From positions 1-26,217 of the IMG/VR virus record IMGVR_UViG_3300045999_002896: a stretch of 26,217 bases of DNA. One strand, written 5' to 3'. Positions 3,061 to 25,767 of the stretch are shown one piece after another; the stretch's first letter is position 1, and each line of letters starts with the position of its first letter. The stretch comes from a virus. The notes beneath the pieces were generated by a model, which worked only from the letters and a program-made list of their open reading frames with translations, did no database searches and was not told the DNA's origin. Made by a program: the position numbers and the translations under genes.

Positions 3061-3385
3061 TCAGCCAATGAATGGCTTAACAGAGGAACAAATTACTAAC
3101 GCTCAAAACAAGTTTCTTGAATATGCCAAAAAAGAAAACTTAGAGCCTTTAAATACTTACTTTAAAGATGAATGGTATTCTCAAGATTCCATGAACTTAA
3201 GAGGAATTGTTCAAATACCTGTATGTTTTTTAGCAAAGTCACTTGAATATATGAGCGAATGCAGTACTGTTTATTTTGCAAAAGGCTGGGAGAATGCGCG
3301 GGGTTGTAAAATTGAACATGAAGTTGCTTTGCAATATGGCTTAGAAATTATTTACGAGGCAAATGAGTTGAACGAATTAGCTTAA
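3041..3385 (+). CDS. DUF4406 / nucleoside 2-deoxyribosyltransferase-like protein
   Basis: The 114-residue product starts MKKIMISQPMNGLTEEQI and carries later family features: AKSLEYMSECSTVYFAKGWE, then ARGCKIEHEVALQYGLEII. These match DUF4406 proteins, which have the fold of nucleoside 2-deoxyribosyltransferases. The frame is open further upstream, but that part overlaps the previous gene and has no family resemblance, so I place the start at ATG 3041 (ATG 3053 is possible). Phages use related enzymes in nucleotide salvage or base modification; the substrate here is unknown. The gene is more A+T-rich than the terminase genes on either side, which suggests separate acquisition. Its stop overlaps the terminase start (TAATG). 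Confidence 0.75.
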   Translation: MKKIMISQPMNGLTEEQITNAQNKFLEYAKKENLEPLNTYFKDEWYSQDSMNLRGIVQIPVCFLAKSLEYMSECSTVYFAKGWENARGCKIEHEVALQYGLEIIYEANELNELA

Positions 3386-4614
3386 TGGAGATAAAGGTTA
3401 GTGACAAATACCAAGCCCTGTGGCAACCGCGCACGCGTTACTTCCTCATCACTGGGGGACGTGGTTCGGCAAAGTCTTTCACTGTGGGGCTTTGGGCTTG
3501 CAATATGTTACTTGCTTACAAGAATTGGAAGGTACTTTTCACGCGTTACACGTTATCAAGTGCCAACATTTCCGTTATCCCTGAGTTCAGGGAAAAGATT
3601 GACTTACTTGGCGTTGGTGATGAGTTCAATATGACCAACGCGCAGATTGGACACAAGGTGACAAAGAGTGAAATAATATTCTCAGGAATTAAAACAAGTT
3701 CAGGAAATCAAACGGCAAAATTAAAATCGATACCTGGGCTAAATGTTTTCATCGTGGACGAGGCTGAAGAATTTGTAAGCGAAAAGGACTTTGATACAAT
3801 CGACGAATCAATACGTATGCCTGACACGCCAAACCTTGTTATCCTTGTCATGAACCCGCAAGACGTGGAGCATTGGATTTGGAAGCGGTGGTTTGAAAAA
3901 TCGCACCGCATGGAGACGATTGACGGGCATTCGATACCGATAAGCACGCATGAGGACATAACGCATATTCATACAACGTATTTGGATAATTACCATAACA
4001 TAAGTAAGGATTATATTGCAAAGATTGAGGCGATAAAAAGCAAGTCACCTGAGGCATACGCTCACAGGTTTCTTGGTAAATGGCTGGATAAGAAACAGGG
4101 CGTTGTATTTCCAAACTGGGTGGAAGGCGAATTTGATGAATCTTTGCCTTTTGCTTACGGGCTTGACTTCGGGTTTTACCCCGATCCTTTGGCATTGGTC
4201 AAAGTCGCGGTTGATACCACGGCAAACAAGATATACGTAAAGGAAATCATTTACGAACAAAGTCTTTCTTATGACATGGTTTTGACAAAGATTAGGAATA
4301 GCATTGAACTTGATGCCATGGTTGTTGCTGATACAAGCGAACCACGTTTGATTGACGCGCTTACCTCGAATGGTATCAATGTACATAAGACGGAAAAGTA
4401 TGCTGGCAGCGTGGTGGATGGAATAAAGAAAATGGCTGATTTTACGATCGTGGTCACAGAGGAATCGTATAATTTAAAATTTGAATTAAGAAATTATATT
4501 TGGAACGATAAGAAATCTTCAACGCCAATGGATATGCATCAGCATGGGATTGACGGCGCACGCTATGCCTCAATGAGGCTTTTGGAAGGTTCAGACGTAT
4601 TGGCATTTAATTAA
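3385..4614 (+). CDS. terL: Terminase large subunit (packaging ATPase/nuclease)
   Basis: This 409-residue motor protein cuts concatemeric DNA and pumps it into the prohead through the portal. ATPase features are Walker A GGRGSAKS (residues 24-31), Walker B VFIVDEAEE (121-129) and the coupling motif MNP (156-158). The C-terminal RNase H-like nuclease shows the three expected acidic positions in GLDFGF (Asp261), VVADTSEP (Asp316) and GIDGARY (Asp390). Overall it resembles the PBSX/Terminase_3 group, and its length is normal. The upstream DUF5681 protein is the likely partner. The start overlaps the previous stop by one base. Confidence 0.95.
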   Translation: MEIKVSDKYQALWQPRTRYFLITGGRGSAKSFTVGLWACNMLLAYKNWKVLFTRYTLSSANISVIPEFREKIDLLGVGDEFNMTNAQIGHKVTKSEIIFSGIKTSSGNQTAKLKSIPGLNVFIVDEAEEFVSEKDFDTIDESIRMPDTPNLVILVMNPQDVEHWIWKRWFEKSHRMETIDGHSIPISTHEDITHIHTTYLDNYHNISKDYIAKIEAIKSKSPEAYAHRFLGKWLDKKQGVVFPNWVEGEFDESLPFAYGLDFGFYPDPLALVKVAVDTTANKIYVKEIIYEQSLSYDMVLTKIRNSIELDAMVVADTSEPRLIDALTSNGINVHKTEKYAGSVVDGIKKMADFTIVVTEESYNLKFELRNYIWNDKKSSTPMDMHQHGIDGARYASMRLLEGSDVLAFN

Positions 4615-5404: not shown

Positions 5405-5700
5405 CAAACAACGAAAAGGCGGTTTATATCATTCACCTGATTGAGGAAATAACCAAAGAGATACAAGAACACCCCATGCGAAGGAAACAATTACTACTCC
5501 TTCGCTCCCACTTGGAAAAGGCGGTGCGGTTGACTGGCACAGGAATGTACAGAGAATTAAAACGCCCTGAGTCATTGCCCCTTGTTAGCCATGCAAAAGC
5601 ATTGCCGCAAGAGATAACGGAAAAACCAAAAAGCGTGGAACCGAGCGCAATAATTGCAGATAACATTCCCGAACCAACAAGAAAAAGCAAACGCAAATAA
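5401..5700 (+). CDS. Hypothetical protein
   Basis: The 99-residue product has a helical, charged N-terminal part (MTNNEKAVYIIHLIEEITKE, then RRKQLLLLRSHLEKAVRL) and a Pro/Lys/Ser-rich, probably disordered C-terminal part ending TRKSKRK. No signal peptide or enzyme motif is present. It overlaps the previous gene by four bases (ATGA) and the tail chaperone gene by one base (TAATG). I do not recognise the family. Confidence 0.62.
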   Translation: MTNNEKAVYIIHLIEEITKEIQEHPMRRKQLLLLRSHLEKAVRLTGTGMYRELKRPESLPLVSHAKALPQEITEKPKSVEPSAIIADNIPEPTRKSKRK

Positions 5701-6593
5701 TGGTACAATTTCATTTATCTCATTCAGATACAAAGTATTTTTACCCTGAGACCGCAGCGGATATAACTTTGGAGCAATACGTTTACTTCCATAAGTTTAT
5801 TTTACCTCAATACCCCGAGGTTGAACTTGATGCTTTGATAGCGCAAAAGCAAATGAAGGCGGCGTATTATAAAATCAAACCGTATGCAAAGAAACTTGGC
5901 GTTGACTTGCTTAAATTGTGGGCGGACGTGGTCAAGGAATGTGAAATAATCCTTTTGACAAAAGATGTCAAAGACAATGTACGTCGTTTCCTTCCAGCAT
6001 TGATTGATCAGTTTAATCAAAGTCAAAGTAAGCTTGTAGAATGCTTTGAAATCATGGACGAAGTCTGGGAGGCTCAGGTAAAATACCCGTACATGGCAAA
6101 GGTGGTAAACTATTTCACGGGCATTCCCTTAGACGCGTGTTATGGCAAAGTTGCCGAAAGTCTGGAGTTGAAATATTTAACCTTCATGTTCTCAAAGATA
6201 CTCAATGCAATAAGTGTACCCGAGGAATTGAAATACAAACAGATATACGACTTTAATGGCACTTTGTATTATTTACCTGATAAGCTAATGGCAAAATCCA
6301 CGTTACTTGAATTCGCTGAGGCAGCGCAATTTGACAAAGGACGCAAAGCAATTGAAAACAATGACGCTCAGGGCTTGCTTCATGTTATTGCCGTGTTGCT
6401 CAGGAAAAAGGATGAGGCATATAGCGACGAGGTTTTTCAAAGAAATTGCATTGACTTTTTAAAATTGCCATTACAAGTTGCTTTTGAAGTTGGTTTTTTT
6501 TTGACGAAGTTAAGCGAGAGTTATCAAGTAGATTTGCAGACCTCTATGCTCAAAAAGGCGATGGAAAGTATGCCGCCGCTTCAAAGCAATTGA
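5700..6593 (+). CDS. Tail assembly chaperone, short (G-like) form
   Basis: The 297-residue product is a soluble, helical protein (start MVQFHLSHSDTKYFYPETA, then ITLEQYVYFHKFI). It is encoded just upstream of a short frame that can only be translated well by shifting reading frame. That arrangement is the hallmark of G/GT tail assembly chaperones, which coat the tape measure protein during tail building. The shift site is a run of nine T at 6494-6502 (codons GGT TTT TTT TTG, residues 265-268). Ribosomes that stay in frame add about 30 more residues and stop at 6593; those that slip back one base make a longer product of about 358 residues. The chaperone role is inferred from architecture and position, not from a strong sequence motif. 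Confidence 0.62.
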   Translation: MVQFHLSHSDTKYFYPETAADITLEQYVYFHKFILPQYPEVELDALIAQKQMKAAYYKIKPYAKKLGVDLLKLWADVVKECEIILLTKDVKDNVRRFLPALIDQFNQSQSKLVECFEIMDEVWEAQVKYPYMAKVVNYFTGIPLDACYGKVAESLELKYLTFMFSKILNAISVPEELKYKQIYDFNGTLYYLPDKLMAKSTLLEFAEAAQFDKGRKAIENNDAQGLLHVIAVLLRKKDEAYSDEVFQRNCIDFLKLPLQVAFEVGFFLTKLSESYQVDLQTSMLKKAMESMPPLQSN

Positions 6594-6775
6594 ATGACAA
6601 GTATGGTTGGTACTTGACAATTAAGAAAATAGCTGAGTGCGGATTGTTCAACTTGGCAGGGTTCACGCCCTTACAATCAAGCGAAAAGGCAAATTTGTAC
6701 GAGGTCTTTCAATACCTTGCGAGCAAAGCGGCTGAGGATAACCTTTACAATGAGATACAAAAGCAAAAGAAATGA
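6488..6775 (+). CDS. Frameshift extension (T-like domain) of tail chaperone
   Basis: In the -1 frame relative to the upstream gene, reading is open from just after a TGA at 6485-6487 to TGA at 6773-6775. There is no ATG or GTG start; the first possible start, TTG 6590, would cut off about a third of the open frame. The T9 slip site lies at the very beginning of this open region. After a slip the added sequence reads FDEVKRELSSRFADLYAQK and later KYGWYLTIKKIAECG, a short helical domain like those following tail chaperones in other Bacteroidetes phages. The best reading is that it exists as part of a -1 fusion. A sequencing error in the T run, or a separate TTG-started 61-residue protein, are the alternatives. 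Confidence 0.62.
   Translation, partial: SWFFFDEVKRELSSRFADLYAQKGDGKYAAASKQLNDKYGWYLTIKKIAECGLFNLAGFTPLQSSEKANLYEVFQYLASKAAEDNLYNEIQKQKK
6492..6503 (+). other. Probable -1 ribosomal frameshift site (T9 run)
   Basis: The upstream frame reads GGT TTT TTT TTG here. It contains the heptamer T TTT TTT, on which both tRNAs can re-pair after slipping one base back. The -1 frame has a stop at 6485-6487, seven bases before the T run, and is then open to 6775. Transcriptional slippage on T9 would have a similar outcome. I could not verify a downstream stimulatory hairpin by eye. Confidence 0.6.
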
Positions 6776-7227
6776 CACTATTAGAAATAGCAGACTTATT
6801 TAAAAGTACCACGGACGCAACGCAAGGGTTAAACGGCTTTTCATTCGGTTGGGCTTCGGACAGGACGCGGTCACAGGATTACGATTCCGTGGGCATAAAC
6901 AGTATAAACTTATTCCCCAGAGTTTTCTTTGCCGTGCCAACGCTTGTCAACAACCCGATAACACGACGCGACGTGTATCAAATTACTTTGTTCTTTGATG
7001 ACTTGCTTGGTTACAATGAAGACGGAACGGTTAACGAGGATACGCAAATAGAAAAGTGGTCAGCCTTGACGGTGTTGGCTGAGAAATTCATGTTACAAAT
7101 AAATACAAATAAGCAGACGGGCAATATTTCCGAAGGCGTTCAAATGACATTGGATAGCTTTTCATCGATACAAAGGTTAATAAGTGTACAAGCGACATTC
7201 AACTTAAACGTTATTTCATCATGTTAA
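6772..7227 (+). CDS. Phage tail/neck protein, unassigned
   Basis: The 151-residue product has no catalytic motif and mixes helix with strands (RVFFAVPTLVNNP, then DVYQITLFFDDLLG, ending QATFNLNVISSC). Similar-looking proteins in Bacteroidetes phages sit next to gp10-like tail completion proteins and may be tail-terminator or neck components; this comes from pattern and position only. The start overlaps the chaperone extension by four bases (ATGA), and the end overlaps the next gene by seven bases. Confidence 0.6.
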   Translation: MTLLEIADLFKSTTDATQGLNGFSFGWASDRTRSQDYDSVGINSINLFPRVFFAVPTLVNNPITRRDVYQITLFFDDLLGYNEDGTVNEDTQIEKWSALTVLAEKFMLQINTNKQTGNISEGVQMTLDSFSSIQRLISVQATFNLNVISSC

Positions 7228-7748
7228 TTGAGTTACAAATCTTAGCGGATGACATTGCGCAAATGGCAATTGAAGCCGTGGCGAATGAGTGGAAAGCACA
7301 GGGACACAACCTGACAGGCGCAGCCATAAAAAACATGGAAACGGTTATACGCATGGAAACCGATAAGATTATCATTGAAGGCTTTATTCCTGATTACATG
7401 GCAATAAATAACTCAGGAGTCACGGCGGCGCGGATACCATACACGCCCAATAGCGGAAACAAAACAAGCAAGTATATTTCAGGCTTAATTGAGTACGTTA
7501 AAAAACGCATGGGAAAAAGTGACAAAGAGGCAAAGGGAATCGCCTTTGCCATTGCCTCAAAGCACAAGAAAGAAGGGATGCCAACAATAGGAAGTAAGCG
7601 GTTTAGCCAAACGGGAAAGCGAACGGGCTTCATTGAAGAAGCATTGGATAAGAAGCAGGCTGAAATGTCAGACTTAATAAACAGCGCGATTTATCAAAGC
7701 ATGACAATTACCGTCGAATCATTTTACAAATCAATTTTAAACAGATGA
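7221..7748 (+). CDS. HK97 gp10-like tail completion protein
   Basis: The 175-residue product carries features of the HK97 gp10 / Mu gpG-like family of head-tail joining or tail completion proteins: an early helix and GHNLTGAAIKNMET (residues ~29-42), a strand segment with IIIEGFIPDYM, a central IPYTP followed by a basic loop, then FAIASKHKKEGMPTIGSKRF and a C-terminal helix. Family members close the upper end of the tail tube or join it to the neck. It lies directly before the large tail genes and overlaps both neighbours by a few bases. No export signal is present, as expected for a virion part. Confidence 0.68.
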   Translation: MLIELQILADDIAQMAIEAVANEWKAQGHNLTGAAIKNMETVIRMETDKIIIEGFIPDYMAINNSGVTAARIPYTPNSGNKTSKYISGLIEYVKKRMGKSDKEAKGIAFAIASKHKKEGMPTIGSKRFSQTGKRTGFIEEALDKKQAEMSDLINSAIYQSMTITVESFYKSILNR

Positions 7749-8947
7749 GTTACACGATAAACCCCGATACCATATCAAGCAGCCTTTACCCCGTGGCGTT
7801 TCGTTCCATTGAACCGTCTGGGGTTATTCAACAGCAAGTCAACGTTTATCTTGATGGAACATTGGAAGGCTCGTTCTTGGCGGCTCAAACGGGAACAAGT
7901 GGAACGTCGGCGGTGTTTGATACAAATGTTCAATCGTTTTTGATTACTCAACTTGCACCAAAGACAAACGCGAAAACAAGTTTCTTTGGAAACCTTTACG
8001 GTTTCAGTCTTACAAATAATACGGACGTTATTTCATCATTGTATTGCACCGCGTTTAATCAAACCGTTAATTCATCGGGCTTCGTCGTTACCTCAACGGC
8101 AGCGCAAAGCAGCACCACGGCATACGTTTTGCCTTCATTGTTTGTGGATGGGGAATATGACATGGGGGACTTTTATCAACCCTCAGCAAATCCTTTTTTA
8201 TTCCTGACACAAAGGAATGATTTTATTAAATGCAATTCCTCGGGTAACATATTTTTAAGTTACCTCGGGCGTGGAACAAATGCGGCTCAATTTGAATTTT
8301 ATTTAAAGTCTGGAAGTTCAGCCGTTACCATTGTAGACAATTTAAATTCCACGGCAAACAATGATTTATATTCATTGTCCGCTGGCGTATCAAATATATT
8401 TGGAAGCAGTGCCATTTTTCATGCTGGCAATTTTCCAACCAATCCAGATTTGTACGATTATTACGATGTCTCCGTTGGCTCATACGACGGTGCATTCACG
8501 CGCCTAAGCGAAAGGCAACGTATTTACATTTATCCAAATTGCAACGATAGCATTGAGCTTCATTGGTTCGGCAAGCATGGAGGCGCGGAAAGTTATCAAT
8601 TCATGGGACTAATGATTGATAAGCAAACCAGCAACGCGGATACGATTAACCTTGCGCAAAGGTGGAACATTGCAGCAAGTCCAAAAGCAAATACCTTTGA
8701 TAAAAATGTGATTAAGGTTAATCAAAGGTCAAACAAAAGTAAGACGGTCACGGTGGCGGTAAGTCATGAGGATGCGTTGTACATTGCCACAATGTTTAAT
8801 TCTCCTGAGGTGTACATTATTGAAAATGGAAAATATGTTAATGTAACCATTGCTAACGGGGAGATAAACACGGATAACAACAGGGCAACCGACATTGGTG
8901 TTACGTTTGAAATCATTTATCAAAATACGCCAGTCGCTCAGCTATGA
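7745..8947 (+). CDS. Tail structural protein, unassigned
   Basis: The 400-residue product is rich in Ser, Thr, Asn and aromatic residues and appears mainly beta, as virion proteins usually are. A segment IELHWFGKHGGAESYQFMG (about residues 276-294) resembles a motif I recall from tail or baseplate proteins of Bacteroidetes phages. No catalytic, signal or membrane feature is seen. It lies between the tail completion gene and the 811-residue tail protein and overlaps both by four bases. It could be a distal tail or baseplate component. It is not the tail tube on present evidence, because a better tube candidate lies at 17778. Confidence 0.6.
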   Translation: MSYTINPDTISSSLYPVAFRSIEPSGVIQQQVNVYLDGTLEGSFLAAQTGTSGTSAVFDTNVQSFLITQLAPKTNAKTSFFGNLYGFSLTNNTDVISSLYCTAFNQTVNSSGFVVTSTAAQSSTTAYVLPSLFVDGEYDMGDFYQPSANPFLFLTQRNDFIKCNSSGNIFLSYLGRGTNAAQFEFYLKSGSSAVTIVDNLNSTANNDLYSLSAGVSNIFGSSAIFHAGNFPTNPDLYDYYDVSVGSYDGAFTRLSERQRIYIYPNCNDSIELHWFGKHGGAESYQFMGLMIDKQTSNADTINLAQRWNIAASPKANTFDKNVIKVNQRSNKSKTVTVAVSHEDALYIATMFNSPEVYIIENGKYVNVTIANGEINTDNNRATDIGVTFEIIYQNTPVAQL

Positions 8948-11379
8948 TAAAATTATTTATAAATAATCAAGAGGTCGATTTAAACCAAAAGGATGTCAAT
9001 GTCACCATTGATTACTCCATTGAAAATATTGAGCTTGGTAATATTTCAGGGGCGCACTCAAAAAGGAATGTAACATTACCCGGAACAAAGACGAACATTG
9101 ATATTTTTGAAAACATTGAAACACCAAATGTCATTGTCACCAATGCTTACAAGTTGTTACCCGCACGGCTGGAGGCAAATGGCGTTCCAATTCTTACGGG
9201 AAAAGCGCGACTTGATTCAGGCGAATTAACCGCGATGAACCACGGATTCAAAGCGAATAATTACAAGGTTGCATTGATTGGAAACAATGCGGATTGGTTC
9301 GCAGACGTTGGTAACATCTTAGTAAGGTCACTTGGTTGGCAGGACATAACCGTATCCACGGCAACGGTAAAAACGAATTACAATCCATTGACTTCAGAAC
9401 ATTGTTTCATCTTGATGAAATGGAAAGCGTGGGAAAATGAAACGTACATTGTAGACAATGAGTTGACGCCAGCCATTTTCATTTGGCAAATATTGGAAAA
9501 GGCGTTTCAAAACAAAGGATACCAATTAAACAGCATTTTTAAAACAGATCCTTTCAGCCGTTTGATTATACCAATGGGGCTTAATCTTGATGCTGATTAC
9601 ATTGCGGATTTTGTAAACTTACGGGCTTCCAATCCATCGCCTTCGTCCTTCGTTTATTCCTCAGGTGATTACGGGACGGTTGACATTGCCTTTACAAATG
9701 AAACCACGTCACCCAACTTTGACACGGGAGGCAATTACTCTGGCGGCGTTTATACCGTGCCAATAAATGCGTTGTATGAATTAATCGCTGAGCTAAACGT
9801 TACCTTAACGGCTTCTATTGGTGACTTAAACCAATTTGCAGAACTTATTCTTTTCTTTGAAGTCAATGGCAACGTTGTTTCCGTGTACGATTTAACCAAT
9901 GAAACCACGTTAAATGATTCCATTGCGCTTGAATTTCTGGGGGACTTGGTGGCAGGTGACTTGGTTAAAATGAGGCTGAGGTACGAGAACGTAACATTTA
10001 ACCTTGTTATCGGTGGCTCATTTTCCGTGGTGGCACAAAAGGAGGGATTAGAGCAAGGCGAAACGGTAAATTTGGAATACATCATACCTAATAGTTGGTA
10101 CGTCAAAGATATTATTGCGGACTTAACAACCATTTTTAACCTTGCATGGGAAACCGACGTACTAAGCAAACAGGTGTACGCGTATCCAAAAGACAATTAT
10201 ACGGTAAGGTATCGAGCCAATGCAAGCGGCGCGATTACCCTTACAACCTTTGACGGCTTTTTTCAAGACACGTATAAGTATGATTTGAATACCCGTTACA
10301 TTGATGGAAGCGAATTAACCATTCTTGACAATTACAAATCAAGTCAAGTGCTGGCGTATGCCACGGATGATGATACGACAAACAAAGAAGAAGCAAGGCG
10401 CGGCGTTAACATTTACTCAGGGGGTTACAACTTTCCAGAGGATCGTTTTCCAAATGGCATTGAATTTCTTTATACAAAGTTCTTTGCAAAAGCCATTCAT
10501 ATAAACGACGTTGCCATTACCACGGGTGGAACATACGGGGCGCAGATGCCACTTGTTTTTGGCGACGATTATAATACCGTTCCCGATGCAGAACCCAATT
10601 ACAACTTGGCACCTCGTTTGCTTTATTACGCAGGCAGGCGCAGCGGCTTAGACGGATACGTTCGTTTGTATGATGAAGCAAGTTCTGCGGCTTCGGCTTT
10701 TGATTTTCCTGCAGCGTTCATGGTAAATTACAACGACCCGAGCGGTGGCGATTTTAACCTTTCCTTTTCAGATGAAGTCACAAATTATACAAACGTGATG
10801 CAAGGCGTTTTTAAAACGTTCCACCTTCAAACCTACAAGCGAATAGAACTTGGGAAGCAATATACCACGTTTGTCAAATGGGAAAACAAAGACATAACGC
10901 AACTTTCCTTCAGGCGCAAGGGAATGATTGGAAGCTCCAATTTTATTATTCAGGAATTGGAATACAATCCAAAGTCCAATAGCCCAGCAAGAACGGTTAT
11001 CTTATACGACGAAAAGCCAAATGTAAATGATTTAAGCAAAGTTTCAAATACGATTACTTTAGCAGGCGCACCGCCGCAAGGTGGAACGGTGACAGGATCG
11101 GGCAGCGGATTGGTTGGAGCGAATGGGGCGACGGTAAATATTCAGTTATCTTATACGCCGTTCCTCAACTCAATGACCAATGTTCTTGTATTACCGGTAA
11201 ACTCAGGTATTACTCAGGTAAGTAACACGAATGCAAATGTACTTGTATTCCAGAACGGGCAAAAGTTGCTTCCAATCATTCAATATATTATCGGTGGCTC
11301 AACCATTGGAATAAACATTGATACCCATTACGATGGGGCAAATTATGAAGTTATTGTAAACGGCGTAACAAAGGGATAA
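8944..11379 (+). CDS. Large tail protein, baseplate/hub-like
   Basis: The 811-residue product begins MIKLFINNQEVDLNQKDVNV and soon shows a segment NISGAHSKRNVTLPGTKTN. I recall this pattern (a 'S..VTLPGT..N' block near the N terminus) from long tail proteins of Bacteroidetes phages. The bulk is beta-rich with many aromatic and Asn residues. The last ~75 residues (from about 11146) form a module containing VLVFQNGQKLLPIIQY and GANYEVIVNG. Related modules occur twice in the fibre protein at 20432, which suggests a shared external, possibly Ig- or fibre-like domain. The gene overlaps its neighbours by one to four bases and directly precedes the tape measure gene. A hub or receptor-side role is inferred. 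Confidence 0.62.
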   Translation: MIKLFINNQEVDLNQKDVNVTIDYSIENIELGNISGAHSKRNVTLPGTKTNIDIFENIETPNVIVTNAYKLLPARLEANGVPILTGKARLDSGELTAMNHGFKANNYKVALIGNNADWFADVGNILVRSLGWQDITVSTATVKTNYNPLTSEHCFILMKWKAWENETYIVDNELTPAIFIWQILEKAFQNKGYQLNSIFKTDPFSRLIIPMGLNLDADYIADFVNLRASNPSPSSFVYSSGDYGTVDIAFTNETTSPNFDTGGNYSGGVYTVPINALYELIAELNVTLTASIGDLNQFAELILFFEVNGNVVSVYDLTNETTLNDSIALEFLGDLVAGDLVKMRLRYENVTFNLVIGGSFSVVAQKEGLEQGETVNLEYIIPNSWYVKDIIADLTTIFNLAWETDVLSKQVYAYPKDNYTVRYRANASGAITLTTFDGFFQDTYKYDLNTRYIDGSELTILDNYKSSQVLAYATDDDTTNKEEARRGVNIYSGGYNFPEDRFPNGIEFLYTKFFAKAIHINDVAITTGGTYGAQMPLVFGDDYNTVPDAEPNYNLAPRLLYYAGRRSGLDGYVRLYDEASSAASAFDFPAAFMVNYNDPSGGDFNLSFSDEVTNYTNVMQGVFKTFHLQTYKRIELGKQYTTFVKWENKDITQLSFRRKGMIGSSNFIIQELEYNPKSNSPARTVILYDEKPNVNDLSKVSNTITLAGAPPQGGTVTGSGSGLVGANGATVNIQLSYTPFLNSMTNVLVLPVNSGITQVSNTNANVLVFQNGQKLLPIIQYIIGGSTIGINIDTHYDGANYEVIVNGVTKG

Positions 11380-14297
11380 TGTCAAAAGTAATAGGTTTTC
11401 AAATAGTAATAGACGGACTTGGCAAAACGGTTGAAACGGCAACGGAGTTGAAAAGAGCCATTGCCGACGTAAACGCGGAAATCAAGAAAACAACCGACGT
11501 TCAAGAAATCAAGAAGCTTGAAGCGAAGTTGGTTGACTTGAAGGCGGCGCAAATGGAAGTTAACAAAGTTGTTAAGGAGCAAATCAAAAGTCGCAACGAA
11601 GAAATAACCGCAACTGACAAAGCCAACGGAGCTTATCGCAAGTTAAGCAAAGAGTTAAACGACCAACGCAACCGATACAAAGATTTGGCGGCGGCTGAGC
11701 AGGAATCAAGTCAGGAGGCAAAAGATTTATTAGTAAGTATCAACAACCTCGATAAAAAGCTAAAGGGCATTGATGCCACGGTTGGACAATTTCAAAGAAA
11801 CGTCGGTGGTTATACCGAGGCATTGGGGCAATTTTTCCCGAAACTTGGGGGAACTGTGGGTCAGGTTACTGGATTAATAGGTGGTTTATCACAGGGAATA
11901 ACTGGATTAAGCGCAACAACAGGAGCATTCAACAAGTCGCTTGGTGCTATTGGAATAGCATTGACCGCATTTAGTGGCATATCTGAAATATTTCAAAGTA
12001 TAAATGAATCGGTTTCTGAAACAAAAGAGTTATCTAATCAGGTTGCAGGATTCACGGGGGCAACGGGAAACGTATTGAGCGATTTTGTAAGCAAGTCAAA
12101 AGCAATATCAACCACATATAAAAAGGATGTAAATGAAATTACCGTCGCAGCCAACACGGCAAGCAAAGCATTAGGCATTGGTTTTAATGAGGCGTTGGAT
12201 GCCATTGAGGCAGGATTTAGAAAGGGCGCAGATAGTAATGGGGAGTTCTTAGATAATTTAAAAGAATATCCAACGCAATTTGCAGCGGCTGGATTAAGCA
12301 TTAAAGATTATTTAGCCATTTCAATCGAGGCGGCAAATCAAGGAGTATTTTCAGACAAAGGCTTGGACGTTGTTAAGGAATTTGGATTAAGAATTAGAGA
12401 ACAAACAAAAACTTCCAAAGACGCATTGATAGGTGCATTTGGTGAAGAATTTACAGGAGAGTTATTTGAAAATTTAAACAATGGCTCAATAACAACCGCC
12501 GAGGCTTTGTCCTTAGTAAGCGGCAAAATGGGAGACACTGAGGTTGCAGGAGATAAATTACAGACGGTTATTGCAGATGTTTTTGGCGCGGCTGGTGAAG
12601 ATGCTGGTTTGGCTTACATTCTTTCGTTGGAAAAGATTTTAAAAAATACTGACGATGTAACAAAGTCAACAAACCAGTATCAAACACAACAGGAAATTCT
12701 TTATCAAACAAACCTTGACTTGGAAGCAAGTCAATCAGAATTAAATGAATCATTCACAAAGTTTGGAGGAGAATTTACAATTATATCCTCTAAAGCAAAG
12801 ATATTTTTTAACAACTTATTAGGCGGTTTACTTGATTTTGCAAATGAGTTTCCTGCAACCTTAAAAGCAATGGGGGCAGGGTTAACGACCTTTTTTACAA
12901 CGGGAAGCATAAGTGGTGCATTGAAAGCAAATAGAGATGTATTTAGAGCCGAAAAACAAAAGATAGATAAGGAGGATAAGTTAGCCATTGAGAAAGCTGA
13001 AAAGAATCGGATTGCACTTGAAAAGCAAAACGCCGAAGAACAAAAGAAAAGATTAAAAGCTCAAAATAAAGAGTTAAGCACCACGGCAAATAAAGGAGGC
13101 AGGGACGCGGCAAAAGAATATGCGGCTGGTTCCCTTGCAGCCCTCGAAGACGAAAGAAGCAAATTACAAACCGCTTTTTCCAACGCCGTGGTTGGCTCGG
13201 GAACACAGAAAGAACTTGCGGTAAAGTTGAACGCAATTAATAACCAAATCAAGTCAGCGGTTGAACAACAAAACCAAATCTTAGCCGATGCGGCGCGTGG
13301 TAACTTGCTTAATAACTTGAAAAACGCGGAACAACTTGCAACCTTGCCATTGACGACAAAGCCGCCAGAATTATTAAAAAAGGAGGTTGAAGATATTCAA
13401 AAGGTGTTTAAAGAGGTTACAAAAAACGCGGACGACTTTAGGGACGAACAAAAGAAAAAAGAGGAACAAGATTTAGAGGAACGGGCAAAGAGAATTGAAA
13501 CTTATTTGCAAACCGCTTCTTTAGTCACCGACTTTTTTTCTACGGTACAGCAAGCGCGTTTTAAAAAGGATGCTGACCAATTAAATGAACAAATCGAGTT
13601 AACGGAAGAAAATATTGCAACGCTTGAAGCCAAAGCAGAAAAAGCAAGTGGCATAAAAAAGAGGAGATTAGAAAAAGAAATTGTTCAGGAAAAGGCGTTG
13701 TTAGAATCAAGAAACAAAGAAGCCGAAGCATTGCAATTAAAAGCGGCGAAGGCTGAAAAGAAAATAGCCATTCTTCAGTCAATAATACAAGGGGCTTTGG
13801 CGGTAAACAGGGCTTTAGCCGTTCCACCTGGTCCGCCATTTACTATTGGTTCAGCCATTTCTGCAGGTGTTTTCGCAGGAATACAAACGGCAACGATTAT
13901 TGCCCAGCCCCTTGCTGAGGGTGGCGTGGTCACAGGGCAACGGGTGAATCAAAAGCAAAACATACCAACGCGTTCAAATGGTGACAATGTTCTTGCTTAT
14001 GTTAAGCGTGGTGAGGTGGTATTGAACCAACGTCAACAAAGTTTACTTGGTGGTTCTCCCACGTTCAGGAAACTTGGTATCAAAGGTTTCGCGGAAGGTG
14101 GCATGGTTCCACCGATAAGCCCACCGATACAAGGCTTAGGTTTACAGGGTAACATGAACGAATTTTTGCAAGTCATGGAGGCAAAGACGGACGCGATAAA
14201 CAACAGGATAGACAGGTTACAAGCATACGTTGTGAGTGAGGACATTGCGCGCGATCTTGCTGAGGGAAATAAATTGAAAATAAACGCCACTTTATAA
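11379..14297 (+). CDS. Tail tape measure protein
   Basis: The 972-residue product sets tail length and is held inside the tail tube during assembly. Evidence is its size, the largest in the tail block, and a long Lys/Glu/Ala-rich helical N-terminal part (residues ~20-125, with KLEAKLVDLKAAQMEVNKVV). Gly-rich hydrophobic stretches follow (VGQVTGLIGGLSQGITG near 165; GAIGIALTAFSGI near 190). A second coiled coil occupies ~550-800 and a hydrophobic stretch lies near 800-855 (AILQSIIQGALAVNRALAV, ISAGVFAGIQTATIIAQPL). The C-terminal EGG and GEVVLNQRQQ motifs are often seen in tape measure proteins. No lysozyme or peptidase domain was noticed. It lies downstream of the chaperone pair but with the other tail proteins between them. 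Confidence 0.85.
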   Translation: MSKVIGFQIVIDGLGKTVETATELKRAIADVNAEIKKTTDVQEIKKLEAKLVDLKAAQMEVNKVVKEQIKSRNEEITATDKANGAYRKLSKELNDQRNRYKDLAAAEQESSQEAKDLLVSINNLDKKLKGIDATVGQFQRNVGGYTEALGQFFPKLGGTVGQVTGLIGGLSQGITGLSATTGAFNKSLGAIGIALTAFSGISEIFQSINESVSETKELSNQVAGFTGATGNVLSDFVSKSKAISTTYKKDVNEITVAANTASKALGIGFNEALDAIEAGFRKGADSNGEFLDNLKEYPTQFAAAGLSIKDYLAISIEAANQGVFSDKGLDVVKEFGLRIREQTKTSKDALIGAFGEEFTGELFENLNNGSITTAEALSLVSGKMGDTEVAGDKLQTVIADVFGAAGEDAGLAYILSLEKILKNTDDVTKSTNQYQTQQEILYQTNLDLEASQSELNESFTKFGGEFTIISSKAKIFFNNLLGGLLDFANEFPATLKAMGAGLTTFFTTGSISGALKANRDVFRAEKQKIDKEDKLAIEKAEKNRIALEKQNAEEQKKRLKAQNKELSTTANKGGRDAAKEYAAGSLAALEDERSKLQTAFSNAVVGSGTQKELAVKLNAINNQIKSAVEQQNQILADAARGNLLNNLKNAEQLATLPLTTKPPELLKKEVEDIQKVFKEVTKNADDFRDEQKKKEEQDLEERAKRIETYLQTASLVTDFFSTVQQARFKKDADQLNEQIELTEENIATLEAKAEKASGIKKRRLEKEIVQEKALLESRNKEAEALQLKAAKAEKKIAILQSIIQGALAVNRALAVPPGPPFTIGSAISAGVFAGIQTATIIAQPLAEGGVVTGQRVNQKQNIPTRSNGDNVLAYVKRGEVVLNQRQQSLLGGSPTFRKLGIKGFAEGGMVPPISPPIQGLGLQGNMNEFLQVMEAKTDAINNRIDRLQAYVVSEDIARDLAEGNKLKINATL

Positions 14298-14930: not shown

Positions 14931-16310
14931 ATGACATACGCCGATTATCCAGATGCTGCAAAGAACAACGCACGACGCGCACTTGACCACAAAAAGAATG
15001 GGTCAGACTGCGGAACGCTTGTCGGCTGGCAACGGGCGAATCAAATCGCCAACGGCGAGGGATTAAGCGAAGAAACGGTTCAGCGTACCTATTCCTTTTT
15101 AAGCCGCGCGGAAACGTATGACCAGGGCAAATATTTTGATGAAGATGGTTCTGAAATTTGCGGCTCAGTAATGTATGACGCATGGGGTGGAAGTGCGATG
15201 AGGGTTTGGGCTGAGGCAAAGTACAAGGCGATACAAAAGGACAAAGCAAAAAACATGGCAAAAGTAAGTATAGATATTTTAGGGGAAATTTCGGAATCGG
15301 TTAATTCTTACAACTCGGTAAGGGCAAAGATTAACCAGGCGAACGGGCAGCCAATTAATTTAACAATATCCTCTGGCGGTGGCAGTGTCACCGAAGGAAT
15401 GGGTATTGCTGACTTAGTTGCTAATTATCCCGAAGAAACCACGGCAACAGGAATCGGCTTGGTAGCAAGCATTGCAACGGTTGTACTGTTGGCAGCGGAC
15501 AATGTAAAGATGACGGAAAACGCCTTCATGATGATTCACCGACCTTGGAGTTATACGATGGGTAACGCCGACGAACTTGAGGCAACGGCTGAATTATTGG
15601 ACAAAATGGAGGCAAAGTTACTTGACATTTACACGGCTTCGGTTATTAAACGCAGGGGATACCAAAACAACCTAAAAGAAATTATTACGAATATGATGGC
15701 AGCCGAGACTTGGCTGACCGCTCAGGAAGCGCTTGAATTTGGCTTCATTGATGAAATTGTTAAAGTTGGCGAAAAAAACATAGATATGTTACCGTTGCAA
15801 AATAGCCTAAACAAGTTCTTAAATGTTCCAGCCGCATTATTAACAAATACAAAAAAAGACGATGACATGGGTAATTCCATTTTAGAAAAAATCAAATCCC
15901 TTCTTAATAGCATAGATGAAACTCCCGTTGTGGAAAATGTTATTGAGGAGGAGGAAAAAGTAATTGAGGAGCCTGAGATGGATGAAGTTGAAAAAGCTAT
16001 TTCCATGTTAAAGGAGAAAGGTTACATTGTAATGTCACCCGATGAAATGGATGCCATTAACTCAAAGCAAAAAGAGGAAATGGAATCAATGTACAAAAAG
16101 ACCGATGAACAAAAGAACTCTATCAATGAAATTGAGGCGGTCCTTGAAACATTGGGAAATGAATTGGTTGCACTTCGGGCGCAAGTAAAAAAAGGCGTTG
16201 GACTTCCTTCGGGCGGCTCAGCACATGAAAAGGTTCAAGAAACAAAAGCGAAATCGAGTTACTTTGATTCTTTCGCTTCATTAGTTCAAAACAAAATCTC
16301 ACAAAGATAA
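14931..16310 (+). CDS. Prohead protease (ClpP-like) fused to scaffold-like domain
   Basis: The 459-residue product has three parts. Residues 1-105 form a domain with DCGTLVGWQRANQIANGE and SVMYDAWGG, a Cys/Gly/Trp-rich unit known from phage proteins near capsid genes. Residues ~109-285 are a ClpP-type serine protease (start MAKVSIDILGEI), with the nucleophile in GLVASIAT (Ser180), the histidine in MIHRPW (His203) and the helix with AAETWLTAQEALEFGFIDE. Residues ~313-459 are acidic and coiled-coil-like, as expected of a scaffold (EEEEKVIEEPEMDEVEKAI). The protease should mature the prohead and the scaffold part should guide capsid assembly. ATGs at 15255 (residue 109) and 15867 (residue 313) could give shorter protease and scaffold products, as with lambda C/Nu3. 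The stop overlaps the next start (TAATG). Confidence 0.85.
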   Translation: MTYADYPDAAKNNARRALDHKKNGSDCGTLVGWQRANQIANGEGLSEETVQRTYSFLSRAETYDQGKYFDEDGSEICGSVMYDAWGGSAMRVWAEAKYKAIQKDKAKNMAKVSIDILGEISESVNSYNSVRAKINQANGQPINLTISSGGGSVTEGMGIADLVANYPEETTATGIGLVASIATVVLLAADNVKMTENAFMMIHRPWSYTMGNADELEATAELLDKMEAKLLDIYTASVIKRRGYQNNLKEIITNMMAAETWLTAQEALEFGFIDEIVKVGEKNIDMLPLQNSLNKFLNVPAALLTNTKKDDDMGNSILEKIKSLLNSIDETPVVENVIEEEEKVIEEPEMDEVEKAISMLKEKGYIVMSPDEMDAINSKQKEEMESMYKKTDEQKNSINEIEAVLETLGNELVALRAQVKKGVGLPSGGSAHEKVQETKAKSSYFDSFASLVQNKISQR

Positions 16311-16771
16311 TGGCAACAGCAAACGTCAATGGTTTTCTCGATTCAAACACATACGTCGGGCAAAACAGTTTAAACCGCACCAACCCGTATGCCAACGCGC
16401 AAGGGATAAACGCGGAGCAATTATACGGAATTGATACCTTTGAGGATCGCATTCCCGTTTCCTTCACTTATGGCACTTCCACGGCTGGTAATCGCTTAAG
16501 CGTTGCACCGTTGACAGGTGTAACAAGTGCAAGTGATTTTTACAAAGTTACCGTCGTTGATGAATCAGGTAACGAGGCTTATGCCAACTGGCAATCCTCA
16601 GCACCAACTGCAATTTTACAGATAACAACCACGGCGTTGAACAAAGGCAACGATTGGAAGGTGTTATTTGCAACGGCAGCGGCTGGAGCAAAAACCGAGT
16701 TTTCATTTGTGATTGAGGATTCATTGGTTTTAACCAATACGTCTGCAACTATTTCTTACCCAAATCTTTAA
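16310..16771 (+). CDS. Putative head decoration/structural protein
   Basis: The 153-residue product is small, Thr/Ala/Asn-rich and apparently mainly beta (start MATANVNGFLDSNTYVGQN; later FEDRIPVSFTYGT and FYKVTVVDESG). It lies between the protease/scaffold gene and the major capsid gene, where phages often encode a capsid decoration or stabilising protein. There is no further family evidence. The start overlaps the previous stop by one base, and a 12-base A-rich gap separates it from the capsid gene. Confidence 0.55.
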   Translation: MATANVNGFLDSNTYVGQNSLNRTNPYANAQGINAEQLYGIDTFEDRIPVSFTYGTSTAGNRLSVAPLTGVTSASDFYKVTVVDESGNEAYANWQSSAPTAILQITTTALNKGNDWKVLFATAAAGAKTEFSFVIEDSLVLTNTSATISYPNL

Positions 16772-16783
16772 AATTAAAAACAA

Positions 16784-17767
16784 ATGGCATTAGTTGAAAT
16801 AAGCCAACTTGACGTATCCTTCAGAGGTACTGAGGCAAATAACATTTTTTTAGAGCCTGTTTTCTTTGATGACGATTTACGCGGTCAATTCCGTGTACTT
16901 GGAAACGTCGCCAATAAAAAGAAAATGGTTTTCGTTCAGCAACTTGAGAACATTGTAAGAAAGTACTCAGGCTGCGGATTTAATCCCGTTGGCTCGGTTG
17001 ACATTTATCAGCGTACCATCGACGTTGAAAAAATGAAGGTGGATCTTGAAATGTGTTGGGATGAGTTCGAAGACACGGTTTTTGAAGAGTTGTTAAAAAC
17101 TGGCACAAGGCTTCCAGATGTTTCGGGAACGTTAATTGAGAATATTTTATTGACCCGTACACAACAGGCGATAAGAAATGATATTACCCGTCTTTCTTAC
17201 TTCGGTGACCAATCAAGCAACAATCCTAACTTTGATTCATTAGACGGTTTTTGGACGGTGTATTACCCTCAGTTGGTTACGCAAGACTTGGTTCCACGTT
17301 GCAACACAGGCTCAGGTACAGACCTTGGCGCGGGTGACGGCTTCGCAATCCTTCGCGCCGTGTATGACCAAGCGCCTTTACAGTTGAAAGGTTTACCTGC
17401 TAACCAAAAGGTGTTCAATGTAACGCAAAGCGTTTATTCTCAGCTTCGTGAGGACATTGAAAACGGCGGTGGCGGCGACTACGGTTTATTGCAATTAATC
17501 AATGGCGTTGAGCAATTTACCTTCCGTGGCGTAACTGTGATTCCTCAATTCCGTTGGGATGACATTGCAACAAGTTTAGGAACAACTAAGCCGCATTATG
17601 TTGAATATACCACGCCTCAAAACAAGGTACTTGCAACGGACGTGTTAAGTCCTGAAACGGCTTTGGAACTTTGGTATGACCAGAAGGACGAAAAGGTGTA
17701 TATCAAGGCACGCTTCAAAATGGGCGTAAATTATATTCACCCATCATTAATTAGCTTAGGCTACTAA
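16784..17767 (+). CDS. Major capsid protein (HK97-fold type)
   Basis: The 327-residue product is of typical size for a HK97-fold capsid protein and directly follows the protease/scaffold and decoration genes. It begins MALVEISQLDVSFRGTEANN, with an early segment that fits the N-arm. Middle segments such as LKGLPANQKVFNVTQSVYSQLRED and VEQFTFRGVTVIPQFRWDD fit the P- and A-domain pattern of capsid proteins from Bacteroidetes phages, where a test for a folded subunit is followed by 'F.G..VI....WD'. The end, KARFKMGVNYIHPSLI, is the usual C-terminal strand. About 415 copies would form a T=7 shell if it follows the common plan; that number is general knowledge, not seen here. Confidence 0.82.
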   Translation: MALVEISQLDVSFRGTEANNIFLEPVFFDDDLRGQFRVLGNVANKKKMVFVQQLENIVRKYSGCGFNPVGSVDIYQRTIDVEKMKVDLEMCWDEFEDTVFEELLKTGTRLPDVSGTLIENILLTRTQQAIRNDITRLSYFGDQSSNNPNFDSLDGFWTVYYPQLVTQDLVPRCNTGSGTDLGAGDGFAILRAVYDQAPLQLKGLPANQKVFNVTQSVYSQLREDIENGGGGDYGLLQLINGVEQFTFRGVTVIPQFRWDDIATSLGTTKPHYVEYTTPQNKVLATDVLSPETALELWYDQKDEKVYIKARFKMGVNYIHPSLISLGY

Positions 17768-17777
17768 TCAATAAAGA

Positions 17778-18326
17778 ATGAGCGCAATAACAAGCGGTTG
17801 GCTTAATCAATGTACAGACGGGACGTGCGCTGGTGGTATTGGTAAGTTTTACATTGCCAATGCTAACCAAGTCGCAAGCGTTACCAATAACGCCTCAGGA
17901 GCAACCACGGCAATAGCCATGACCTCCACGGCTGGCGTATTTTACGAAATTGAGTTTAGGGATAACTCAGGAGCGTTCACGGAAACGGTGACACAGGATC
18001 CAGATACTTTGTCTGTAGCCATTGAGCAAAGTTTGGTTGGAATCATTAATTGCCGCGATCAAGAATTACGTAACCTAATTCAAGACATGGCAAATCAGGC
18101 TTGCGGCTTGGTTTGCGTACACGTGGAAAACACGGGCAATTATTGGATTTGGGGCGTTGAACTTGTTGGCGGTAAGAAAAGGGTTGCAAGGTTGACAAGT
18201 GCCGAAGGTTTATCGGGTGCATTGTTTACCGATTCAAACCAAGAAACGCTTACCATTACTTGCAGAACCACGAACAAAGCGAGGTTTATCGTTAACGGCG
18301 AAACAGTGATGAACGCCTTAGATTAA
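17778..18326 (+). CDS. Probable major tail tube protein
   Basis: The 182-residue product has a pattern I associate with tail tube proteins of Bacteroidetes phages: a central long helix-strand region (LSVAIEQSLVGIINCRDQEL, then LIQDMANQACGLVCVHVEN), followed by GNYWIWGVELVGG, then a turn and LTSAEGLSGALFTDSNQETL leading into a final strand ending in VNGE. Six cysteines in the first ~120 residues (CTDGTC, C-R, C-L-V-C) are unusual for such a protein. It follows the capsid gene and precedes a small gene and the portal, away from the other tail genes. A head protein cannot be excluded. Confidence 0.55.
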   Translation: MSAITSGWLNQCTDGTCAGGIGKFYIANANQVASVTNNASGATTAIAMTSTAGVFYEIEFRDNSGAFTETVTQDPDTLSVAIEQSLVGIINCRDQELRNLIQDMANQACGLVCVHVENTGNYWIWGVELVGGKKRVARLTSAEGLSGALFTDSNQETLTITCRTTNKARFIVNGETVMNALD

Positions 18327-18333
18327 TTTGAAT

Positions 18334-18570
18334 ATGATAGTTAGAGATAAAAGCAAACAAATGCTTTACGTGGGTGCAGACCTTTCGGGCAAAGCTGGAA
18401 TCATTCGAAAAACTATCGGCGAACTTTCACAAAACGAATTGAGGGCTTGGTACAAATCAAGCCCTCAGGACGTTGGGCAACACGTCATTTATACCCCTGA
18501 GAAAAAAAGCTATGAGCCAACAATTAAAGAAAATACAGGCAGTCCCGAACAGGAACAACAGGGTAAGTAA
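18334..18570 (+). CDS. Hypothetical protein
   Basis: The 78-residue product starts MIVRDKSKQMLYVGADLSGK and contains a helical piece GELSQNELRAWYKSSPQDV before a polar, probably disordered end (SPEQEQQGK). A TTG two codons upstream (18328) is an alternative start. It begins just after the tube-like gene and its last 59 bases are read in another frame as the start of the portal gene. I do not recognise a family. Small proteins before the portal are sometimes neck or accessory parts. Confidence 0.58.
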   Translation: MIVRDKSKQMLYVGADLSGKAGIIRKTIGELSQNELRAWYKSSPQDVGQHVIYTPEKKSYEPTIKENTGSPEQEQQGK

Positions 18571-19921
18571 AAGGAATCAAAGCCCTTTACTTGCTTCCGT
18601 TACTTTAGACACCTCCAATACAATGCTTGTAAAGGAGGATATTTTTAATGAGCCGTCACGGGAGAGGCTTGATTTTACAGGGGCAAAGTGGGTAAGGTTC
18701 TTCACTCAAAAGGATGACTTTTTAAAAAGCCTTATAGCTATTGTAAATAATTCGCCGACGTTACGAAGGATAATAGAAGATAAAACAAACATGGTCGTCG
18801 GTGACGGCTTCATCCCAATGAAGGGCAAAGCAAATACCTTGCTTACCACGTCCATGAAGGGCGAAGTTATCACCGACGATTCTTTAAGCGAAATAGAAGA
18901 TGTTATTTCACAGGTTAATTTACACGGGCAAAATCTTCAGGAAGTTTTGGCTCAACTTGCTTTTGACTATGATGCTTTTGGGAATAGCTTTTGCGAAATT
19001 GTTAAAGGCAAAGTAGGCAGCGAGCCATTCACTTATATTTACCATGTACCCGTTTATAACATTGGTATAAGTAAAGCGGAAGCGGATCAGATAATTAAAT
19101 CAGTTGGCATTTACGATAATTGGGAAGAGGTGCCACTTACCACCGACGGCGTATTTTACGAGAGCGAAGGATTCAGGGAAGTACCAATTTACCCAGACTT
19201 TAAGAAATTTGAAGACGGAACGCAAAGAAGCGTTGTTCATGTGAAGCAATACGCGGCAGGATATTTTTACTTTGGTTTACCTGAGTGGATTGGCGCGAAA
19301 ATGTGGGCTGAGATTGAATATCGCATTCAAAGATTTAATACAAGTAAATTTGAAAATGGTTTCATGCCTTCTGGGGTGATGCAATTCTTCGGCTCAATTA
19401 CGCCCGACCAGGCAAAGAAATTGGTTGAAGGCATAGAAAGCAAGTTCACGGGAATGGGGAATAATCATAAGTTATTTGTTCAAGTTCTTAGGGACGAAAA
19501 ATTAAAAGCAAATTGGATTCCCACCTCAAAGGAAAGCGAGGGCGAATTTTTAAATTTGCAAAACTTGGCAGCCTCAGCCATTGTCGTGGCTAACAGGTGG
19601 AGCAAGTCACTTGCAGGCTTCGCCACGGAGGGGCAACTTGGAAGCAATCAACAGATACGTCAGGAAATGGAATATTTGCAAAGTACGGTGATTAAACCGC
19701 GCCAAAACTTGATGTTATCTAAAATAATAAATCCTTATTTAGCCGAAATTGGGCTTTATAACCCAGCCTTTAAAGATGTTCAATTCTCAATATCAAACAC
19801 TTTACCCGTGTCATTCATGGGTGAAATAAAGGTTGAGGATAATTTGACGCAAGACGAAAAAAGGGAGATATTAGGTTATTCACCAATCGAAACAAATGAG
19901 CCAATTAATACAACCGTCTGA
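18512..19921 (+). CDS. Portal protein
   Basis: The 469-residue product would form the dodecameric ring through which DNA enters and leaves the head and to which the terminase docks. The family pattern is clear: an N-terminal basic region, then SLIAIVNNSPTLRRIIEDK (inner stem-like helix), QVNLHGQNLQEVLAQLAFD and the following DAFGNSFCEIVKG wing segment, YIYHVPVYNIG, VVHVKQYAAGYFYFGLPEW, and a long helix in the C-terminal part (IRQEMEYLQSTVIKPRQNLM). It belongs to the PBSX/HK97-like portals. The frame is open from TTG 18473, but ATG 18512 is the more likely start. It overlaps the previous gene by 59 bases and the next by 26. Its place about 14 kb after the terminase is unusual. Confidence 0.85.
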   Translation: MSQQLKKIQAVPNRNNRVSKRNQSPLLASVTLDTSNTMLVKEDIFNEPSRERLDFTGAKWVRFFTQKDDFLKSLIAIVNNSPTLRRIIEDKTNMVVGDGFIPMKGKANTLLTTSMKGEVITDDSLSEIEDVISQVNLHGQNLQEVLAQLAFDYDAFGNSFCEIVKGKVGSEPFTYIYHVPVYNIGISKAEADQIIKSVGIYDNWEEVPLTTDGVFYESEGFREVPIYPDFKKFEDGTQRSVVHVKQYAAGYFYFGLPEWIGAKMWAEIEYRIQRFNTSKFENGFMPSGVMQFFGSITPDQAKKLVEGIESKFTGMGNNHKLFVQVLRDEKLKANWIPTSKESEGEFLNLQNLAASAIVVANRWSKSLAGFATEGQLGSNQQIRQEMEYLQSTVIKPRQNLMLSKIINPYLAEIGLYNPAFKDVQFSISNTLPVSFMGEIKVEDNLTQDEKREILGYSPIETNEPINTTV

Positions 19922-24487: not shown

Positions 24488-24495
24488 ATAAAAAC

Positions 24496-25767
24496 ATGAA
24501 ACAACTCATTTCCCTCTTCCTCTTCCTTTTGCCTTGCCTTGCATTGGCACAGTATCCGAGCAATGGCAATCAAAAAATAACGCTCGGAGAACAGACGACT
24601 GCGGATGGGCTAATTTGGCGGGGCGTACTTGCGGACACGGGTATTATTACCCCGTCAAGTGATACAAGCGCGTACATAATTCTTGACACGGTTAATCATA
24701 GATTTTACAATTACAACCGTGCTACAAATGTTTGGAGCGTAACTACAATAGGTTCTATTTCATCAGGATTAACAGGTGTTTTGCCTTTGGGAAATGGTGG
24801 AACGGGCAGCGCAACGCAAAACTTTGTAGATTTGACAACGACGCAAACGGTGGCAGGGGCAAAGACTTTTAGTAGTACAATTACGGGCGCAAGATTTGAC
24901 CCAACAAGTTCAAGTGTAAGTGGTAATGGAATGTATTTACCTGCGGTAAATAAATTAGCATTAAGTACAAATTCAGTAAATAGATTTACTATCGATGAAA
25001 ATGGTGTTGTTTTAATTAATACAACTACAAAACCTTCAGTAGCTGGAGGTGGTTTTTTTATTAGTAGAGGAAATCCATCATATACCCCTTCATTTCAAAT
25101 TTTTGGCGGCGCTCATGCATCTGTCATGTATGGAAGTGAACCTGGTTTTACTTTTTCAAGCGGATTAGGGAGTGCTGGAACATTGGAGAACACTGAACAA
25201 GCAATAGCTGGAATGGGTATAATGTATATAAGTGCAACTGATTATCAAAATTTTAGGATTGGAACTCAATCTAATCATAAAATGTTTTTTTTAACAAATA
25301 ATTCTACAAGAATTACAGTTGATAATGATGGTGATGTAGGCATAGGTACATCAAATCCAGCCGTTCAATTTCACACAACAAGCAACGTAAGATTTGCAGG
25401 GTTAGTAAATTATGACCCAGTTGAAACAGATGCAGATGGTGATATAATAGATGGTGGCGCATCTGATTTTAATTTAAAAAACAGTATTGAGCCTATTAAT
25501 TACGGACTTAATTCTATAAATCAACTTAAACCAGTGTCTTATCTATGGAATGATGTAAATAGAAAACTTGACTCAACAATTCCAGATATTGGGTTTATTG
25601 CTCAAGATGTTATGGATGTTATACCTGGAGCGGTAAGAAGTAATGGTGATGGCGATTTACAACTAAATTACAAAGCAATTACTGCAACATTAGTCAAAGC
25701 CATCCAAGAGCAACAAGCCCTCATTAAAGCCCTTGAACAAAGAATTATTAACCTCGAAAATAAATAA
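24496..25767 (+). CDS. Secreted-type fibre/spike protein with S74 chaperone domain
   Basis: The 423-residue product starts MKQLISLFLFLLPCLALAQ, a standard Sec signal peptide ending ALA-Q, with ATG 24496 eight bases after the previous stop. It is followed by the module shared with the upstream fibre (LGEQTTADGLIWRG, then YIILDTVNHRFYNY). A middle region leads to GDVGIGTSNPAVQF and then an S74 intramolecular chaperone domain: SDFNLKNSIEPI (with the Ser-Asp expected for self-cleavage), LKPVSYLWND, DIGFIAQDVMDVIP and a C-terminal coiled coil (KAIQEQQALIKALEQRI). S74 domains help trimerise fibres or spikes and then cut themselves off. A signal peptide on such a protein is unexpected. The middle (about 24890-25670) is more A+T-rich than its flanks. 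Confidence 0.8.
   Translation: MKQLISLFLFLLPCLALAQYPSNGNQKITLGEQTTADGLIWRGVLADTGIITPSSDTSAYIILDTVNHRFYNYNRATNVWSVTTIGSISSGLTGVLPLGNGGTGSATQNFVDLTTTQTVAGAKTFSSTITGARFDPTSSSVSGNGMYLPAVNKLALSTNSVNRFTIDENGVVLINTTTKPSVAGGGFFISRGNPSYTPSFQIFGGAHASVMYGSEPGFTFSSGLGSAGTLENTEQAIAGMGIMYISATDYQNFRIGTQSNHKMFFLTNNSTRITVDNDGDVGIGTSNPAVQFHTTSNVRFAGLVNYDPVETDADGDIIDGGASDFNLKNSIEPINYGLNSINQLKPVSYLWNDVNRKLDSTIPDIGFIAQDVMDVIPGAVRSNGDGDLQLNYKAITATLVKAIQEQQALIKALEQRIINLENK

Follow-up and report, generated by a model that had tools for sequence, protein, structure and literature searches.

In a tailed phage represented by a 26.2-kb virus contig of the IMG/VR collection (26,217 nt, hereafter the window), the locus at positions 5700–6775 is almost certainly, on the evidence of its sequence, a single gene that gives two products by programmed recoding. 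A 0-frame ORF on the plus strand (5700–6593) encodes a mostly helical short form of 297 amino acids and carries, near its 3′ end, a run of nine T residues (T9, plus strand, 6494–6502), which is read GGT TTT TTT TTG in frame 0 and includes the heptamer U_UUU_UUU at 6494–6500. ORF reading shows that the −1 frame of the same strand has a TGA at 6485–6487, is then open from 6488 to 6772 and is closed by a TGA at 6773–6775. The open region (6488–6775) has no start codon, and none of its 95 residues (6488–6772) is Met. Standard decoding would stop at 6593 and produce the short form, while a slip on T9 would shift reading to the −1 frame and produce a long form of 358 amino acids that ends with a conserved 91-residue C-terminal domain, encoded from 6500 on. 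The computed length of the product of a slip after 6500 is 267 + 91 = 358 residues. A reading of this DNA made earlier from the sequence alone had pointed out T9, the startless −1 frame open at 6488–6775, a 297-residue short form and a long form of ~358 residues, and all of these were borne out by the letters and the computed lengths. A homopolymer count over the whole window found only this run of at least nine; the next longest are one T8 and several runs of seven.

T9 is common to ~30 close relatives of the window gene, which come from different metagenomes. T9 is retained, along with the 0-frame stop and the −1 frame, in all close relatives that span the site, the exceptions being contigs that end earlier. 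A set of 28 related loci contains 29 T9 runs, 28 of them at the slip site, and only four T8 runs. Distant relatives, with identity down to ~27–34%, were retrieved by homology to the −1 domain with the T-run not part of the query. Cluster counts were used throughout (clusters at 90% identity of the C-terminal domain; 7 clusters at 50%), the raw 276 loci containing some contigs more than once. The split-frame relatives form 54 clusters, with T9 in 51, T10 in 3 and no other length. T9 is also present in two sequenced isolates, Nonlabens phages P12024S and P12024L. T is fixed at the synonymous sites of the tract in 7 lineages (log10 P of −2.2 for the Phe codons and −3.9 for the preceding codon). 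The chance of all synonymous positions of the tract being T is ~10^−6 over the 7 merged clusters, calculated with codon use from the rest of the same genes and with clusters treated as independent. The first scan of genome contigs and the phylum sample gave no match.

Homopolymers are prone to errors, and a broken copy of a single-ORF relative exists in Flavobacterium phage 6H; the frameshift could in principle stem from faulty sequencing or be an accident in a gene that has decayed. We regard this explanation as extremely improbable. The sequence-only reading had raised the doubt that T9 was a misread T8 or T10; a read error is excluded because the same T9 recurs in the ~30 metagenome relatives, in the distant split relatives and in the isolates, as well as in a copy integrated in a bacterial genome. 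Both frames are, moreover, under purifying selection. Among 22 unique close relatives, pN/pS was 0.12 for frame 0 upstream of the tract and overlap, and 0.094 for the −1 frame downstream of the 0-frame stop, where the other two frames gave 1.6 and 2.5. In the dual-coded overlap (plus strand, 6503–6593) pN/pS of the same relatives was below 1 in both frames, and pS fell about threefold, to 0.13 (frame 0) and 0.17 (frame −1) from 0.38 and 0.31 outside. Selection thus acts on the end of the short form too, an argument for both products being in use. Most other groups show the same two-frame pattern; the exception is one small group of four sequences with few changes, in which the 0-frame ratio exceeds 1. 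In phages of the P12024 type (L222–L297), the dual-coded stretch past the slip mostly measures 40–67 codons and takes up as much as about three quarters of the C-terminal domain; both of its frames are constrained in most groups.

Searches of named phages by tblastn with the window proteins encoded at 5700–6590, 7221–7745, 7745–8944 and 8944–11376 gave no matches. The 0-frame protein was modelled with AlphaFold (pLDDT 84, mostly helical), and comparison of the model with a viral library gave matches in P12024S and in Flavobacterium phage 6H. The P12024S match, gp38, carries T9 in the other codon phase, CTT TTT TTT TAT, and the −1 ORF of this phage matched the profile of the C-terminal domain with an E-value of 1.5e-8. 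The protein annotated as gp39 (L206:2164–2331) is this domain taken from an internal ATG. Its coding region opens at the slip site, ~84 bases (~28 residues) before the annotated ATG. We conclude, from comparison of the reading frames, that gp38 and gp39 of P12024S are one split gene mis-annotated as two. They have the same two-frame layout, T9 and a homologous C-terminal domain as in the window, and differ in the codon phase of T9 and in being annotated as two unrelated hypothetical proteins (PHROG 32199 and 38404). The gp39 annotation is what speaks for the −1 frame being a separate gene that has a start codon of its own. That this is so we consider very improbable, given the lack of any Met in the −1 frame of the window, the beginning of the conserved domain at the slip site and the existence of relatives that carry both parts fused.

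Such fusions are found in Flavobacterium phages 2A and laban6-1, in Cellulophaga phage Ingeline_1 and in a gut contig, where the homologous protein is encoded by a single uninterrupted ORF. The profile of the long form aligned with the single-ORF proteins of Duneviridae through the slip junction (hhalign 95%, E 3e-8, the E-values being those of single pairwise comparisons). Among viral contigs, all 18 relatives of the Duneviridae type are single ORFs of 277–306 aa. The Duneviridae protein (PHROG 25418) is a homologue of the long form, and its gene likewise belongs to the tail module and precedes that of the tape measure protein, but it lies in one frame and lacks T9, and hence no short form arises by a slip. 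Duneviridae apparently make the fused form only, so that not all members of the family would have a short:long ratio. In Flavobacterium phage 6H gp10 is interrupted (L207:10340–10390) relative to the one ORF of phage 2A, either by a true disruption or by a sequence error. The fetched stretches of Riemerella phage RAP44, Bacteroides phage BS-TP2, Olleya phage Harreka_1, Leeuwenhoekiella phage Arctus_1 and Cellulophaga phage phiST contained no homologue. In a genome from the same family as a Winogradskyella MAG, one contig carries a P12024-type copy with T9 (L323; G218:C1:2638655) at a depth of 2.6 Mb; given this location, some members are probably prophages.

The homologue search suggested by the sequence-only reading turned up both frameshifted and fused versions. 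The invariant run, the selection on two frames and the natural fusions strongly support a −1 event on T9 that joins the frames. That reading had named, as evidence to the contrary, homologues whose second gene starts independently and which lack a slippery site; none was seen among the homologues found. Homologues without the slippery site exist, and in those both parts form one ORF.

Two arrangements of the tract were observed. In the window type, [G/A/S/Y]T+FF+TTR, one T precedes the Phe-Phe codons and two follow (GGT, GCT, TCT or TAT before; TTG or TTA after). In the P12024 type, [V/I/L]T+FF+TAY/TGG, two T precede and one follows (GTT, ATT or CTT before; TAT, TAC or TGG after). A further locus, L324, comes from a genome whose bacterial family also includes a Winogradskyella MAG; it combines a P12024-type domain with the window-type arrangement, a phase switch inside the P12024-type family. 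In all window-type clades the +1 frame is closed right behind the T-run (window 6502–6504; L142:3257–3268; L143:4001–4012), with TGA, TAA and TAG all in use as the stop; in P12024-type members a +1 stop usually lies within 4–5 codons of the run. Since the +1 frame is closed just after the run, reading of transcripts one T shorter would terminate immediately.

The slip would consist of a stutter of RNA polymerase on T9 that lengthens the run by one U (T9 to T10). A −1 slip of the ribosome on U_UUU_UUU is a close alternative or may contribute jointly; it yields the identical protein to a one-U insertion by the polymerase. The tract has the marks of both processes: a conserved A/T run of about nine or longer, typical of transcriptional slippage (T9 or T10 in the 54 clusters), and an in-frame X_XXY_YYZ heptamer, typical of ribosomal slippage (T_TTT_TTT, T1–T7 of the run, in both phases). 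That a length of at least nine is held across two codon phases, with flanking T's compensating, favours polymerase slippage, although the phase change is seen in few lineages and the flanking T's are also explicable by conserved amino acids of both frames. As far as the tract itself can tell, slippage by RNA polymerase appears slightly the more probable of the two.

A classic programmed −1 ribosomal frameshift would be a tandem slip of tRNA-Phe on U_UUU_UUU, in the style of lambda G/GT, with T8 and T9 owed solely to the residues that each frame encodes; we give it somewhat less than an even chance. A stimulatory downstream structure and an upstream Shine-Dalgarno-like element are common, though not universal, in programmed ribosomal −1 frameshifting. 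RNA structure downstream of the run, which the sequence-only reading had proposed to predict, was not conserved (z-score 0.48; consensus energy −0.11 kcal/mol over 19 sequences; pseudoknots outside the search), and an Rfam search gave no match. A ribosomal slip needs only 7 T, whereas no split member has fewer than nine, with the extra T's compensating around Phe-Phe, and other heptamers (A_AAA_AAG, G_GGA_AAG) never occur in the family. On the other hand, the in-frame heptamer is perfect in both codon phases, this is the route used for tail chaperones of many phages (PMC5009743), and shifting of HK97-like pairs was 6–7% experimentally (PMC3711429). The earlier claim that the slip is exactly that of lambda-type phages holds as far as −1 joining is concerned; the all-U heptamer as the only one, the lack of structure and the keeping of length over phase point at least equally to polymerase slippage.

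Polymerase slippage, the slightly preferred mechanism, has precedents. T9 slips efficiently in bacteria in vivo, and such slippage is used by Thermus dnaX (PMC5009743); insertions in A/T runs, mostly +1, climb exponentially with run length (PMC5574713). Thermus thermophilus dnaX (nine A/T) and Shigella mxiE likewise rely on a long A/T run to make an alternative-frame product by polymerase slippage. Those are bacterial genes with slippage, whereas the present case is a phage tail gene for which slippage is predicted from sequence.

Within the tail module, terminator-like, neck-like and presumed tube genes separate the recoded gene from the tape measure gene downstream. The next gene (plus strand, 6772–7227) overlaps the −1 frame by ATGA and encodes a 151-aa protein that, by position and length, may be a tail terminator. 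Its place and length are kept between families, but it is not counted as proof of synteny because homology between families is undetectable. In some relatives this gene has a C-terminal extension of ~430 aa with repeats and a part that looks lectin-like (L030:7076–8818), which suggests that the extension is virion-exposed. It is followed by a gene for a 175-aa protein (plus strand, 7221–7748), judged by gene order to be neck/tail-completion-like; its positional equivalent in P12024S has weak matches to HK97-gp10_like and PHROG 5. The tape measure protein, with which a tail assembly chaperone would be expected to associate, is encoded at 11379–14297 on the plus strand (PhageMin_Tail, E 7e-12; PHROG tail length tape measure). 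The tail genes are followed by those for a protease and for the presumed capsid and portal (14931–19921), whereas head genes usually come first, and a fibre-like protein (24421–25767) ends with a Peptidase_S74 chaperone-of-endosialidase domain. Judged by its terminase large subunit (plus strand, 3385–4614), whose nearest named phages infect Bacteroidota (Riemerella, Nonlabens), the window is a phage of Bacteroidota.

From its gene position, two-form design and helical fold model, the pair is probably a tail assembly chaperone of the G/GT-like kind. The tape measure protein would be covered by many short and few long forms, the latter recruiting tail-tube subunits through their additional C-terminal domain, as gpG/gpGT do in lambda. 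Lambda gpG/gpGT and HK97-type pairs likewise consist of a short protein and a minor −1 extension, are encoded in the tail module in overlapping frames and have a startless second part. The differences are that the short form is about twice as long as the lambda/HK97-type ones (297 aa), an unusual length for a G-type protein that the sequence-only reading had rightly remarked on, that the tract is all-T instead of a GGGAAAG-type heptamer, that the gene stands before the terminator-like and neck-like genes, and that no match of sequence or fold is detectable. G/GT-type pairs are normally encoded between the tube protein and tape measure genes, and known tail chaperone families are often mutually unrelated. 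Pfam and PHROG gave no named chaperone match, the weak ones (MOM1, GH127 etc.) being judged chance; the PDB gave no sequence-profile match and a best Foldseek E-value of 0.5. A structure model of the C-terminal domain was unusable (pLDDT 63).

The gene order unlike that of lambda, the lack of a chaperone family or fold match and the single fused form in Duneviridae would also fit another protein with the same recoding, namely a neck, tail-initiator or morphogenesis protein with an optional C-terminal domain. This reading is a serious but lesser possibility: the helical fold lacks virion-like beta domains, the tail-module location goes together with the two-form design, and no other small chaperone-like gene lies ahead of the tape measure gene. 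The tail chaperone named by the earlier reading is thus upheld by position, two-form design and helical model, and weakened by gene order and the Pfam, PHROG and PDB searches. Taken as a whole, recoding by a slip on T9 that yields a chaperone pair is the best explanation, and we consider it likely.

Recoded phage tail genes are an already known kind. What is new is this family, its strict T9 instead of a mixed heptamer, the contrast of split and fused versions and the annotation correction. A literature search, with subscription journals mostly outside its coverage, found no report of the recoded family or of a tail-protein ratio set by polymerase slippage. Tentatively, a large family of Bacteroidota phages may make its chaperone pair via polymerase slippage on an obligatory T9 and not by ribosomal frameshifting, with the short:long ratio set at transcription and the Duneviridae protein unsplit and made in the fused form only. 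Three unannotated PHROG families are linked into one recoded gene of Bacteroidota phages, and the annotation of gp38/gp39 is corrected for the cultured phages P12024S and P12024L. One and the same protein occurs both split at T9 and fused, which allows a clean comparison, and the family offers a testable case of polymerase slippage that may control the ratio of a tail-assembly protein.
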